From Leptolyngbya sp. PCC 6406 (GTDB lineage Bacteria > Cyanobacteriota > Cyanobacteriia > Phormidesmidales > Phormidesmidaceae), in assembly GCF_000332095.2 (NCBI RefSeq), contig NZ_KI913949.1:1210291-1274290 (forward strand): a stretch of 64,000 nucleotides of DNA, given 5' to 3'. Made by a program: the position numbers and the translations under genes. Under the pieces are notes generated by a model. The model made no database searches and was not told where the DNA came from. It saw nothing but the letters and a program-made list of their open reading frames with translations. Positions 1 through 38,286 of the stretch are shown here, piece after piece. Position 1 is the first letter of the stretch. Every line of letters starts with the position of its first letter.

Positions 1-140
1 CACGATCATAGGTCACAATTTGGTTTTAGTGTAGTTTCGATCCCCCCGACGGGGGTGAGCTGGGAGGCTGGTCAGTGCGATCGTTATCCATGGGTCACCG
101 GGTTGCTCGGTGAGCGGGTAGCCGATATTGGGGAGGGGAG

Positions 141-260
141 GGTGGAGGGATTTTGTGAAACCTGAGCGGAGTCGAAGGGTGGAGGGATTTTGTGAAACCT
201 GAGCGGAGTCGAAGGGTGAAGGGATTTTGTGAAACCTGAGCGGAGTCGAAGGGTGAAGGG
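141..260. repeat. 37-bp tandem repeat, about three copies
   Basis: The motif GTGAAACCTGAGCGGAGTCG recurs at 155, 192 and 229, a period of 37 bp, with the last copy incomplete. The array ends a few bases from the stop codon of the CHAT gene, so it lies in that gene's 3' untranslated region. There are no unique spacers, so it is not a CRISPR. The remaining DNA in 1-264 shows no gene. Confidence 0.85.
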
Positions 261-35032: not shown

Positions 35033-35779
35033 TTAAATAAACACCATAGGTTTGTCTTTGAGGGGCTCAAAGGCCGCAGCATCAAAGCGATAGAGACTGG
35101 CGGGGCGACCGGCACCGCGAGAGGTTTTCTGGCCCGTGTCTTCCAGAAAGCCCAGCTTCAGCAATCGGGCACGGAAGTTGGAATAATCGGAGAAATCTTC
35201 CCCCAATACCGTCACGTATAGCTGGTACAAATCCCCGAGGGTGAATACCTCTGGCAATACATCGAAGGCGATGGGGCTGTATTCCAGTTTGTTGCGGAGG
35301 CGCTGGTAGCCATAGTTAAGGATTTCGTTGTGGTCAAAGGCGAGGCGAGGAACCCGGCTGAGGGGATACCAGGCAATGCCACTGACCCCATCGGCAATTA
35401 ACTCTGCCTCCGCAAAGCGCACCAGGGCAAAGTGGCTCACCGAGAGATAGCGCACCCCATAGGCATCGCGGCCTTCGCGGGGATCCCGATCGGGACCACC
35501 GAAGGTATAGAGCTGTTCCAGATAGAGATTGCTGACCCGAATTTTTTCCGATAGCACCCGGTAGGCAGCATCCTCTAGAGATTCTCCCTGGCGTACTAAC
35601 GTTCCTGGCAAACTCCAGTAGCCCACAAAGGGTTCTTGATGGCGCATTACCAGGAGCACCAGCAGGCGGTTTTGGTCCGTATCCACCGAGAAGATGACGT
35701 TATCCACCCCGACCTTGAAGTCTGCAAGGGCATCCTCCTCTAATGGGTCGGCTGTTTTTCTCTGGAGTTTTCCGGGCAT
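35033..35779 (-). CDS. nrtR: NrtR-type Nudix transcriptional regulator of NAD metabolism
   Basis: The 248-residue protein has an N-terminal Nudix domain (about 20-160) and a C-terminal winged helix (FSDYSNFRARLLKLGFLED, then RGAGRPASLYRF). In the Nudix box, GTLVRQGESLEDAAYRVLSE retains the fold but deviates from the consensus catalytic REUXEE, as expected for a sensor rather than a hydrolase. NrtR proteins bind ADP-ribose and regulate NAD synthesis and salvage genes. Its placement among pncB, nadD and nadE, together with the palindrome before pncB, strongly supports this role. It overlaps the nadD 3' end by 40 bp. Confidence 0.88.
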   Translation of the reverse strand: MPGKLQRKTADPLEEDALADFKVGVDNVIFSVDTDQNRLLVLLVMRHQEPFVGYWSLPGTLVRQGESLEDAAYRVLSEKIRVSNLYLEQLYTFGGPDRDPREGRDAYGVRYLSVSHFALVRFAEAELIADGVSGIAWYPLSRVPRLAFDHNEILNYGYQRLRNKLEYSPIAFDVLPEVFTLGDLYQLYVTVLGEDFSDYSNFRARLLKLGFLEDTGQKTSRGAGRPASLYRFDAAAFEPLKDKPMVFI

Positions 35780-36339
35780 GGTGGATATAGATTTTTTTGA
35801 TGGATATAGGCTCTGACGGCTGTGGGCAGCGCCTCTGCGTCGTCAGTTTGACGAAAATAGCTGGAGGATATGTCGAATTGTTTGGGAATATCCGCGATCG
35901 CAATTTTTCCCCCTTGACGACGCACCTCCATCAAATCATCCTCCGCTAGGGTAAAACCAGGGCGCGGGATTGCCAGCACCTCCACTTGGGCCAGCAATTC
36001 CTGGGCACCGTACCATTTGGGCAATTGCCGCACTAGGTCCGAACCCACGACCAAGGTCAACGTTGCCCCCGGCCATTTTGACTGAGCCCGCTGGACCGTC
36101 ACCAGGGTCCGGGAATCGCTCAGACTCTCATCTAGGGCAATACGTCCCGGCGATGCTGGGATATCCCGAATCATCAACCGCAACATAGCAACGCGATCGC
36201 CCAAAGGGCTGAGGTGCTCCTTAAAAGGATTGTCCGAAGCCCAGACCGCCACATGGTCAAACTGGGTCGCCAGCCATCGCAGGATTTCACAATGGCCCCG
36301 GTGGGGGGGATCAGCGCTGGTACCGAAGAGGGCGATTTG
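35740..36339 (-). CDS. nadD: nicotinate-nucleotide adenylyltransferase, start codon apparently lost
   Basis: Coding similarity runs from codon CAA 36337-36339 to the stop at 35740-35742. The opening IALFGTSADPPHRGHCEI holds the nucleotidyltransferase motif (GTSADPPHxGH) that binds ATP; FDISSSYFRQ near the end is the ISSTxIR-like motif. NadD adenylylates nicotinate mononucleotide. However, this frame has no ATG, GTG or TTG between the catalytic motif and the stop codon of the four-helix-bundle gene at 36463. The first in-frame start, GTG 36252, is past the motif. The space where the initiator should be is filled by G-rich heptamers. It may be read from a non-standard start, be frameshifted, or be inactive. 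Confidence 0.8.
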   Translation of the reverse strand, partial: QIALFGTSADPPHRGHCEILRWLATQFDHVAVWASDNPFKEHLSPLGDRVAMLRLMIRDIPASPGRIALDESLSDSRTLVTVQRAQSKWPGATLTLVVGSDLVRQLPKWYGAQELLAQVEVLAIPRPGFTLAEDDLMEVRRQGGKIAIADIPKQFDISSSYFRQTDDAEALPTAVRAYIHQKNLYPPCPENSREKQPTH

Positions 36340-36397
36340 GGGAGTGGGGGAGTGGGGGGGTGGGGGAGTGGAGGAGTGGGGGAGTGGGGGAGTGGGG
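36340..36397. repeat. G-rich tandem repeat, GGGGAGT-type
   Basis: Seven- and eight-base units of the form GGGGAGTG/GGGGGAGT recur across 36340-36397 directly at the beginning of nadD coding sequence. G-tracts up to 7 long make length errors likely during replication and sequencing. Confidence 0.9.
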
Positions 36398-36462
36398 TAT
36401 GTCGTTGATGTGGCTAGAGGAGGGGTGATGGTGGGGCATTGGCGGGGTGGGGGGTGAAGTCG

Positions 36463-36867
36463 TCACGGTTTTTTTGTGGATTTAGTGGCAGGGGTTGACC
36501 AGTGGGAAGCATTTCGAATCAGGGTGACTATCATGGCCAGAATTTGGTCATAGGTCTGGATCAAATCTGCGGATGCCTCTGGACTCAAATAGTGACAATG
36601 ATGGGCAAATTCGAGCCAGGTTTGGGTTTCAGCCGCTTCTGCCTCAGAATCACTAAGTTTGGAGACAAAGGCGGCCTCATACCTCCGTTTTCGCCAAGCC
36701 TCGGCAATATTGGCACAGACAGAACGAGACGATCGACGGATCTGATCGGTTAGTGAGTATTTTTCCTCCTTGGGAAATGTTTTAGTGACTTCAAAGATTG
36801 TCATAGCTGCCGCAAAAGCGACTTTGTAGACTTTCAAGTCTTGGTGTTGTCGAATAAACTCACCCAC
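36463..36867 (-). CDS. four-helix-bundle protein (S23/IVP family, TIGR02436-like)
   Basis: The 134-residue protein begins at GTG 36867, inside a repeat tract, with the family's start pattern EFIRQHQDLKVYKVAFAAAM. Core helices TDQIRRSSRSVCANIAEAW and TQTWLEFAHHCHYLSPE match the four-helix-bundle proteins first found in 23S rRNA intervening sequences and related to Avd accessory proteins of diversity-generating retroelements. Its job as a stand-alone gene is unknown. Both flanks are G/C-skewed tandem repeats in opposite orientation, and it separates pncB from nadD in an otherwise tight NAD gene order, so the unit looks inserted. No reverse transcriptase is nearby. Confidence 0.85.
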   Translation of the reverse strand: MGEFIRQHQDLKVYKVAFAAAMTIFEVTKTFPKEEKYSLTDQIRRSSRSVCANIAEAWRKRRYEAAFVSKLSDSEAEAAETQTWLEFAHHCHYLSPEASADLIQTYDQILAMIVTLIRNASHWSTPATKSTKKP

Positions 36868-36957
36868 TCCCTTCCCTCCCTAACACCCCAATACCCCACC
36901 CCATTACTCGCCCACTTCCCACGCCCCAATACCCTAATACCCCAATACCCTACGTCC
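36868..36957. repeat. C-rich tandem tract, opposite strand bias to 36340-36397
   Basis: Repeats of CCAATACCC/CCTAATACC type run through 36880-36953. Read on the minus strand this is G-rich, like the 36340-36397 array, so the two tracts bracket the four-helix-bundle gene as imperfect inverted repeats. The tract also encodes the last codons and TAG stop of pncB (36934). Confidence 0.8.
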
Positions 36958-38286
36958 CGTCCTCTCCCGCAGCGCCGCCAACGCCGGGGAAATCTCCACC
37001 GGGTAGACAGTGGGTGCGGTGATAGCGCGAACAGCGGGGGGTAGGGCTTGGACGCTGTGGGTGGTGCATTGGGCGATGGTGGCTAAATCCTCCGGTGGCG
37101 ACAATTGTTCTCCATTGTGCATAACCCGCTGGAGTAGGGGTGTGGTATTGGCCGGGGGACTATCTGTCATCAGCCCTAGGGTGTCGCCTTGGTTGAGGTC
37201 GGCGGGGCGAAAAATCTGCTTGCATCCGGGGTAGGTGGTTTTGTTATGGGCCTCCTTCATGACGGGAATGCCGTCGATGTCCACTAATTTATAAACGCCG
37301 TTGACGGGGGTACCTGTCACCAATCGGGTGCCGAGGCCGTAGCCGTCGAGGCAGGCTCCGGCCTGTTTCAGCCGCTGGATCTCGTACTCGTCCAGATCTC
37401 CACTGGCGAAGATGGGGACGCCGGGAAGTAGTTCCCGCACCTGCTGGGAGAGGCTGACCAGATCGCCGGAGTCGAGGCGGACCCCGGCTAGGGCGCTGCG
37501 ACCATTCTGGTGCTGGGTGGCGAGGCGGCGAGCAGCGGCGATGGTGTCATAGGTATCGATGAGCAGGGGCGCACCGGGAAAGTAGCGATGGAATGCGTCA
37601 AAGGCATCGGTTTCGCTGCCCTGGGTGGCGGCGATCGCCATTACCAGGGCATGGGCCATGGTGCCTGCTGGTTTGCGGCCTAGGGTGAGGGCAGCGAGGA
37701 CATTAGAAGTGGAATCAAAGCCCCCCGCGATCGCGGCCCGTGCGGCCCAGAGAGCAGCCTGGGGGCTAAAGGCCCGCCGGGTGCCGAACTCCAGCAATTG
37801 TGCCTCGGGACCCGCCACATCCCGTAAACGAGCGGCGCGGGTCGCGATCAGAGTTTGATAATTCAGAGTATTTAGCAGATAGGTTTCCACCATCTGGGCC
37901 TGCCACAGGGGTGCTTCTACCCGCAGCAGGGGCTCATTGGCAAAGACGGCGGTGCCTTCCGGGACGGCCCACACATCTCCGGTGAACTTGGCCCCGCGTA
38001 ATCGAGACCAGAACGCTGGGGGAGCCTGGGTGAAAATGCCCGTGGCCTCTAGAGCGGCTAAATGGCGATCGCGGATTTGGAACTGGCTTAGAAATTCCAA
38101 CCCCTGGGCTAGGCCAGCGGCGATGATATAGCCAAAATTTTCCGGCAGACGACGGGCAAAGAGTTCAAAGCTGGCACGGCGCTGATCCAACCCTTCCCCG
38201 ACATAGCAGGCGGTCATAGTGATCTGGTACAGATCCGTCAGCAGGCTGTAATCCTCTGGGGCGCTCAGCAGGGGCGGCGTCGGCAT
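36934..38286 (-). CDS. pncB: nicotinate phosphoribosyltransferase
   Basis: The 450-residue protein starts at ATG 38286 and has the NAPRTase pattern: SLLTDLYQITMTACYV at the N-terminus, GTRRAFSPQAALWAARAAI, AGTMAHALVMA with the phosphorylatable His, and GVRLDSGDLVSLS. It converts nicotinate and PRPP to nicotinate mononucleotide, the entry of Preiss-Handler salvage. It is the first gene of the NAD cluster and is preceded by a palindromic NrtR operator candidate. The C-terminal RRVLGY is encoded by the C-rich tract, suggesting that the original end was replaced or altered. Confidence 0.93.
   Translation of the reverse strand: MPTPPLLSAPEDYSLLTDLYQITMTACYVGEGLDQRRASFELFARRLPENFGYIIAAGLAQGLEFLSQFQIRDRHLAALEATGIFTQAPPAFWSRLRGAKFTGDVWAVPEGTAVFANEPLLRVEAPLWQAQMVETYLLNTLNYQTLIATRAARLRDVAGPEAQLLEFGTRRAFSPQAALWAARAAIAGGFDSTSNVLAALTLGRKPAGTMAHALVMAIAATQGSETDAFDAFHRYFPGAPLLIDTYDTIAAARRLATQHQNGRSALAGVRLDSGDLVSLSQQVRELLPGVPIFASGDLDEYEIQRLKQAGACLDGYGLGTRLVTGTPVNGVYKLVDIDGIPVMKEAHNKTTYPGCKQIFRPADLNQGDTLGLMTDSPPANTTPLLQRVMHNGEQLSPPEDLATIAQCTTHSVQALPPAVRAITAPTVYPVEISPALAALRERTGRRVLGY

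Follow-up and report, generated by a model that had tools for sequence, protein, structure and literature searches.

Genes for a small four-helix-bundle protein, the intervening-sequence protein (IVP), were found in the 1990s in the 23S rRNA intervening sequences of Leptospira, Coxiella and other bacteria, in which they lie inside a terminal inverted repeat and are sporadic and horizontally spread (PMC4990558). These sequences are excised by RNase III (PMC4990558) and, as related in the same source, Ralph and McClelland proposed in 1993 that they had a mobile origin, with the open reading frame (ORF) as a mobility component. What IVP genes do, and whether they move, has been an open question ever since. 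In the RAYT/REP system (REP-associated tyrosine transposases and repetitive extragenic palindromes), one gene is likewise bracketed by inverted repeats that diversify with the gene lineage, and solo repeats occur elsewhere (PMC3686654). Short tandemly repeated repetitive (STRR) or heptamer sequences, with the unit length and intergenic position of the repeats considered here, are known from cyanobacteria, Xanthomonas and Beggiatoaceae (PMC2670836, PMC4692102, PMC4679880). In this literature, inverted heptamer pairs have been counted in Xanthomonas and a horizontal spread of TAACTGA repeats has been suspected, by a mechanism that was not evident; the heptamer repeats are described there without a cause (PMC4679880, PMC4692102). 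The origin of such repeats in cyanobacteria and other bacteria has hitherto lacked an explanation. Here, we describe an IVP gene lying between two opposed short tandem arrays in a stretch of 64,000 nucleotides (hereafter referred to as the window) of the cyanobacterium Leptolyngbya sp. PCC 6406, the genome of which comprises 5.78 Mb in three contigs. We found no earlier account joining IVP genes to tandem arrays in the open-licence literature, and the evidence suggests that this is a slow-moving genetic element of a kind not described before.

The gene order on the minus strand is pncB, IVP gene, nadD and nrtR. A first-pass annotation, made from the window alone, had claimed that the gene splits pncB from nadD between opposed arrays forming imperfect inverted repeats, that it carries the pncB stop codon within an array and takes the place of the nadD start, and that no enzyme of movement lies nearby; these claims held, the last of them for the immediate neighbours. 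TRF assigned a score of 104 to the G-rich array (36339-36397, 7.4 copies of GGGGAGTG); the C-rich side was weaker, with only 3.4 copies of CCCCAATA recognized by TRF (36924-36950), related units spanning 36868-36957. The two arrays are 71% complementary over 59 nt and 81% complementary over 26 nt. By the controls described below, the bracketing exceeds chance, and in the predicted transcript of the cassette the two arms pair around the IVP gene (-217.7 kcal/mol, z -4.6). The pncB stop codon (36934-36936) lies inside the C-rich array, and the immediate neighbours, nrtR, nadD and pncB, are consistent with the lack of a movement enzyme. A search of 59 genomes of the taxonomic family with PncB yielded 28 loci, in addition to the window, with pncB and nadD on one contig. 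The gap between the two genes was 34-223 bp in 28/28 of these relatives, versus 597 bp in the window, and none of the 28 had an IVP gene there, with or without repeats. Compared with each of these relatives, the window thus has the IVP gene as an insertion. The only genome of the same genus with the joint assembled (G018; genome, contig and locus numbers are our own) had short arrays of the TTCAAAA and TTCCCTA types at this position, and no IVP gene.

The downstream gene lacks a standard start codon. Between the TGA of the IVP gene (36463-36465) and the conserved N-terminus (IALFGTSADPPHRGH), a stretch that includes the array, the nadD frame contains no ATG, GTG or TTG, and the window has CCCCACTCCCCAAATCGC where G025, in which the contig ends upstream of nadD, retains the nadD start ATGACCCAACTCCAAATCGC. 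Near-cognate codons in this frame were found upstream (ACG 36405 and ATC 36429) and at the start of the protein (ATC 36336), and the listed GTG start at 36252 would remove the catalytic motif. An ATG at 36439 opens a frame that runs through the array out of phase with nadD; since one more 8-nt unit would restore the phase, nadD expression might depend on array length. Alternatively, the lack of a start may reflect an assembly error in the array. We considered a second NaMN (nicotinic acid mononucleotide) adenylyltransferase excusing the broken start, but the only match to PF01467 in the genome other than nadD is a 179-aa frame that, judged by its size, is probably coaD. The cassette interrupts operons and disrupts start codons, that of nadD being an example, and would therefore impose a genetic cost and need a way of being tolerated. 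IVP genes recur beside genes of NAD synthesis, between nrtR and nadE in G115 (L438) and before nadD in Flavobacterium (L287); in Flavobacterium columnare, too, a gene for a four-helix bundle is listed as lying next to nadD, with guanylate kinase on its other side (PMC5524665).

The protein belongs to PF05635 (114.1 bits, cut-off 33.8) and TIGR02436 (108 bits, cut-off 24), and its solved structural relatives are 2rld and 2gsc (Xcc0516), the latter described, in a title listed in PMC3936711, as an assembly of five four-helix bundles. It scored below the cut-offs of the Avd profiles (Avd/bAvd models: 30 bits against a cut-off of 80, and 38.7 against 40), and no reverse transcriptase (RT) of a diversity-generating retroelement (DGR) was found among the immediate neighbours of the gene, which are NAD genes, so the gene was not assigned to Avd. 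Profile searches detected no Y1 domain in the IVP protein, such as a RAYT gene would have, and the IVP gene is the sole gene of the cassette, which encodes no transposase as an insertion sequence would. Informative pairs of orthologous IVPs from the sister-species sites described below gave dN/dS values of about 0.08-0.24; the orthologous proteins are under purifying selection.

Seven places in the genome matched the IVP protein, the other copies being 25-63% identical to that of the window; on these values, the copies in this genome are old. Nearly all the free-standing copies lie between arrays, with a different unit each time (TTTTGAG/CTCAAAA, CAATTGA types and GACGCGGAGA types), and a degenerate IVP fragment on contig C2 is flanked by GAAGG types. 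A tandem IVP pair on C2 (L074, G000:C2:31000-38000), without matched outer arrays, adjoins an RT-Cas1 fusion and Cas2. Units seen across copies include TTTTGAG, CAATTGA, GGATGGGT, TCATTAG, AATTCGT and many others; the period is 8 in the window and mostly 7-8 elsewhere, and the cassette arrays, as intergenic tandem units of 6-9 nt, qualify as STRR sequences. When the 8-mer was counted across the genome, mismatches being allowed, its reversed control gave the higher score, and the count carried no information.

We compared the 120 bp upstream from each IVP gene with the reverse complement of the 120 bp downstream, by local score, with a threshold of at least 14. The family catalogue comprised 103 IVP genes, 96 of which had full flanks and were scored. 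Inverted matches were obtained for 41% of these 96 genes and direct matches for 18%, versus 5% and 3% for mismatched flanks. After removal of 20 genes in tandem pairs, the flanks of 39/76 free-standing IVPs (51%) matched in inverted orientation and those of 50/76 in either sense; the inverted match was the better in 35 of these matched pairs, and the direct match in 15. By contrast, inverted matches were found for 0/51 DUF29 and PIN genes of the same genomes (Fisher P = 2e-11), for 7/556 random ORFs (1.3%; P = 9e-34; 800 kb from ten cyanobacterial genomes) and for 0/20 genes of the tandem IVP pairs linked to RT-Cas1/Cas2. The family counts include some orthologous or related loci, but the contrast with the controls is not subtle. 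There was also a strong strand bias in the coding sense, with a G-rich upstream and a C-rich downstream flank in 53/76 and the reverse in 2/76.

The association extended beyond the taxonomic family. In a phylum-wide cyanobacterial sample, including small genomes of 1.8-2.2 Mb outside the class, 58% of 48 IVPs had inverted flanks. Likewise, in 80 loci from Bacteroidota, Verrucomicrobiota, Chloroflexota, candidate phyla, Proteobacteria and one archaeal genome bin, the flanks of 82 IVPs matched in inverted orientation in 55% of cases and directly in 18% (mismatched flanks, 0.9% and 0.4%), and array density beside the IVP gene was about 10 times that elsewhere in the same loci. The association between arrays and IVP genes is genuine, and it is both specific and widespread. 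Xanthomonas codiaei and Pseudoxanthomonas (L288, L290) each have an IVP gene flanked by inverted GGGGACC arrays, with an apparent carB immediately downstream, a neighbour common to both genera.

The repeat unit followed the relatedness of the IVP proteins. Among sites without flank homology, defined so as to include cross-side comparison of the flanks, the unit matched in 90% of cases for IVP identities of at least 80%, in 43% at 65-80%, in 17% at 50-65% and in 3% at 30-50%. The unit thus tracks the IVP lineage at unrelated sites, and arrays and gene therefore form one unit. As an example, G046 and G030 contain, at unrelated sites, relatives of the TTTTGAG cassette of this genome that are 80-83% identical and have the same unit. 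The cross-side definition removed an apparent recent transposition between L206 and L207, with identical IVPs and no same-side flank homology: these loci are the same site with the cassette flipped. The other 27 pairs with cross-wise flank matches involved recurring, possibly paralogous, flank genes and were left out of the inversion counts.

Alleles in sister species were compared in one genus (g27), by searching for the flanks of nine sites in 16 genomes and reading the joints at four sites. At L203, the cassette was intact in G115 and G127, G101 and G128 contained internally deleted IVP relics, and seven others had an inverted-array scar without the gene; the cassette erodes through such relics, finally to a scar. 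At L174 (nrtR-nadE), the cassette was present in G115 and G123, an array remnant in G129 and G132, and neither in G122 and G127. At L207, the cassette was found in G115, G120 and G123, was flipped in G101, with an identical protein and flanks 93-99% identical, and was absent from G119, G126 and G129, four more genomes having other small genes there. At L208, it was present in G115, G101 and G121, with a truncated relic in G129. Both arrays share one unit within a species, whereas the unit differs between species despite near-identical flanks (L203, G115 versus G101).

Two of these joints have further features. At L207, G124, G128, G122 and G127 (L449, L453-L455) encode a 93-aa protein without a Pfam match, and two of these four genomes also have an HNH-like frame there. 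The host sequence at the left edge of this site (L447-L457), TTTTTGGTAA, which includes a stop codon, equals the array unit TTGGTAA; in this one clear case, the target may be the source of the unit, or the edge may have been overwritten by the array. The L208 joint of G124 (L460, G124:C1:4802900-4804650) contains a Y1 (RAYT-like) transposase gene bracketed by GATCCCCGACTTCTTGAAGAAGTCGGGGATC-type palindromes, and G120 and G123 (L463, L466) have a solo palindrome there. Judged from these alleles, the joint is an insertion hot spot common to the IVP cassette and the RAYT-like gene.

Arrays also occur away from IVP genes. In genomes with IVPs, 73% of these solo arrays matched an IVP flank of their own genome, versus 27% expected from equal numbers of IVP flanks from other genomes (P = 2e-9), and in random 20-kb regions 11/15 solo arrays matched own-genome flanks, versus 11%. 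Solo arrays can be cassette scars, like those seen at L203. The arrays were not a general repeat load of IVP-rich genomes, as their density did not follow the number of IVPs; nor were solo arrays usually inverted pairs, with the IVP gene merely lying inside one, as only 12/68 were inverted.

On balance, we consider that the IVP gene and its opposed arrays probably constitute a slowly mobile, non-autonomous cassette with inverted tandem-array ends. The first-pass annotation had put forward such a cassette; the insertion, the same bracketing elsewhere, the behaviour of gene and arrays as one unit and the presence or absence in sister species bear this out in part. The bracketing that the annotation required of a second copy was found around further IVP genes, both in this genome and elsewhere in the phylum; its proposal that the gene spreads with GGGGAGT tracts in particular failed, as the unit differs by copy and is predicted only by IVP relatedness. 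Several observations weigh against a mobile cassette. About a third of the clearly matched flank pairs (15/50) are better in direct than in inverted orientation, and 18/76 free-standing copies have no clear flank match even with a threshold of at least 12. The P-values above are optimistic, because the family statistics include related loci. Presence and absence at orthologous sites, as expected of a mobile element, were observed, whereas near-identical copies at unrelated sites and transposition were not: no identical cassette was found at two unrelated sites, the closest such pair having 88% protein identity, so movement would be slow or ancient. At several sites, loss would explain the distribution of the cassette equally well, and comparison of filled and empty joints defined no target duplication or exact end, the array edges blurring the ends. 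Finally, G081, a complete genome with no IVP detected, contains about 38 arrays per 80 kb, versus 0-7 in the other nine genomes sampled. Arrays therefore exist without a resident IVP, and solo arrays also persist or spread in its absence.

In the proposed mechanism, the two arms of the cassette would pair, as RNA or as single-stranded DNA, to form a stem with the gene as its loop, and the IVP protein, a relative of the nucleic-acid-handling Avd, would bind the folded arms or serve an enzyme that does. This enzyme would be supplied in trans; an RT is the first guess, because tandem IVP pairs adjoin RT-Cas1/Cas2 and Avd works with an RT. Tandem pairs beside an RT-Cas1 fusion and Cas2 (L074, L129-L141) had the RT part in 8/10 loci, and an RT-linked role of IVP is possible. 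Recombination between the inverted arms would both flip the gene and homogenize the arms by concerted evolution. Where the cassette lies within an operon, as between pncB and nadD, cutting of the RNA stem would release the messages of the host genes, much as RNase III acts at rRNA intervening sequences. Scars of such cassettes could account for many of the solo short tandem repeats in cyanobacteria. A bolder proposal, which we regard as possible but doubtful, is that foldback-like, array-ended IVP elements form a bacteria-wide mobile class, moving through a hairpin intermediate with an enzyme in trans, that they are the source of much of the cyanobacterial load of short tandem repeats, and that rRNA intervening sequences are their rRNA-settled branch. 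The link between IVP genes and arrays, together with sister species in which the site is filled, flipped, eroded or empty, makes the puzzles of IVP mobility and of repeat origin testable in ordinary laboratory strains.

Among the alternatives, the arrays could be a structure kept in place, an RNA or DNA hairpin insulating, processing or regulating the IVP message, growing by slippage and kept alike by recombination between the arms, with the gene arriving by horizontal transfer. The similarity of same-site arrays within a species and their difference between sister species are as this account would have it, as are the pairing of the arms in the predicted RNA, the strand bias (53/76 versus 2) and the identity of TTGGTAA with host TTTTTGGTAA at the left edge of one site (L207). 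It is nonetheless unlikely: the unit follows the IVP lineage at unrelated sites, contrary to what growth in place would produce, and the joints that hold scars consisting of arrays alone, or IVP relics, show that the arms come and go with the gene.

Host homologous recombination could instead shuttle IVP genes between existing solo arrays, with no dedicated mobility. Solo arrays do share units with the IVP flanks of their own genome, G115 and G101 have near-identical flanks at one site but differ in array and IVP content, and a flip between inverted arms is expected of host recombination. Exchange into a solo array should, however, leave direct rather than inverted arrays; solo arrays are seldom inverted pairs (12/68), and outside cyanobacteria array density falls about ten-fold away from IVP genes, making landing sites scarce; we judge this distinctly unlikely.

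It is highly improbable that the IVP protein itself mobilizes or multiplies short arrays in the manner of a RAYT, with solo arrays as its non-autonomous offspring. The match of solo arrays to own-genome IVP flanks, the inverted bracketing and co-divergence of unit and protein, as in RAYT/REP (PMC3686654), and the true RAYT-like gene with palindromes at the same joint in G124 would fit, but the IVP protein, a small bundle of helices, has no known catalytic domain, and the numbers of arrays and IVPs are unrelated (G081, 38 arrays per 80 kb and no IVP; G115, three per 80 kb and nine IVPs). Finally, cyanobacterial intergenic DNA commonly holds arrays, but coincidence, with short arrays gathering in the intergenic spaces in which IVP genes also lie, is ruled out by four controls: random genes, DUF29 and PIN genes, and RT-Cas1/Cas2-linked IVP pairs lack matching flanks, and mismatched flanks match in only 1-5% of cases.

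The features of the locus are listed in Table 1. At the beginning of the window (139-260), a 37-nt unit, AGGGTGAAGGGATTTTGTGAAACCTGAGCGGAGTCGA, is present in three copies.

Table 1. Coordinates of the IVP cassette and the adjacent host genes in the window.
Feature	Position	Strand	Description
IVP / four-helix-bundle gene	36463..36867	-	134 aa; GTG start 36867, TGA stop 36465-36463; PF05635, TIGR02436
5' array of cassette	36868..36957		degenerate 8-nt units CCCCAATA/CCCCACTT; C-rich on +, G-rich in coding sense; pncB stop inside
3' array of cassette	36339..36397		7.4 copies of GGGGAGTG (coding sense CCCCACTC); inverted with respect to 5' array
Degenerate stretch, C-rich in coding sense, from IVP stop to 3' array	36398..36462		out-of-frame ATG at 36439
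pncB, nicotinate phosphoribosyltransferase, upstream host gene	36934..38286	-	stop codon within 5' array
nadD, NaMN adenylyltransferase, downstream host gene	35740..36338	-	conserved N-terminus starts at 36336-36338, straight after array
nrtR-like NAD regulator	35033..35779	-	next in conserved pncB-nadD-nrtR order

The long inverted ends of the Foldback (FB) transposons of Drosophila consist of short tandem repeats around a middle segment. These elements are eukaryotic and far larger than the cassette, and the likeness lies in the architecture. Avd has the same fold family as IVP and has an RT partner in DGRs, whereas the gene of the window scores too low for the Avd models and lacks an adjacent RT. 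IVP genes have also been reported in cas loci (PMC3936711), but the RT-Cas1-linked pairs lack arrays. The parts of the STRR and heptamer literature available to us describe no tie to IVP; here, the repeats are the ends of a gene cassette. Like the rRNA intervening sequences, the cassette has an IVP ORF within complementary, stem-forming ends, with inverted arms predicted to pair as RNA, but it lies between protein genes rather than in an rRNA helix, its arms are tandem arrays of 6-9-nt units that vary by copy, and it flips in place. With RAYT/REP it shares the bracketing inverted repeats, the solo copies of like sequence in the same genome and even an insertion joint in genus g27, but it has neither a Y1/HUH transposase nor a GTAG-tagged palindrome, and its repeats are tandem arrays. 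By analogy, the cassette would work most like RAYT/REP and the rRNA intervening sequences, while falling under the definition of neither.
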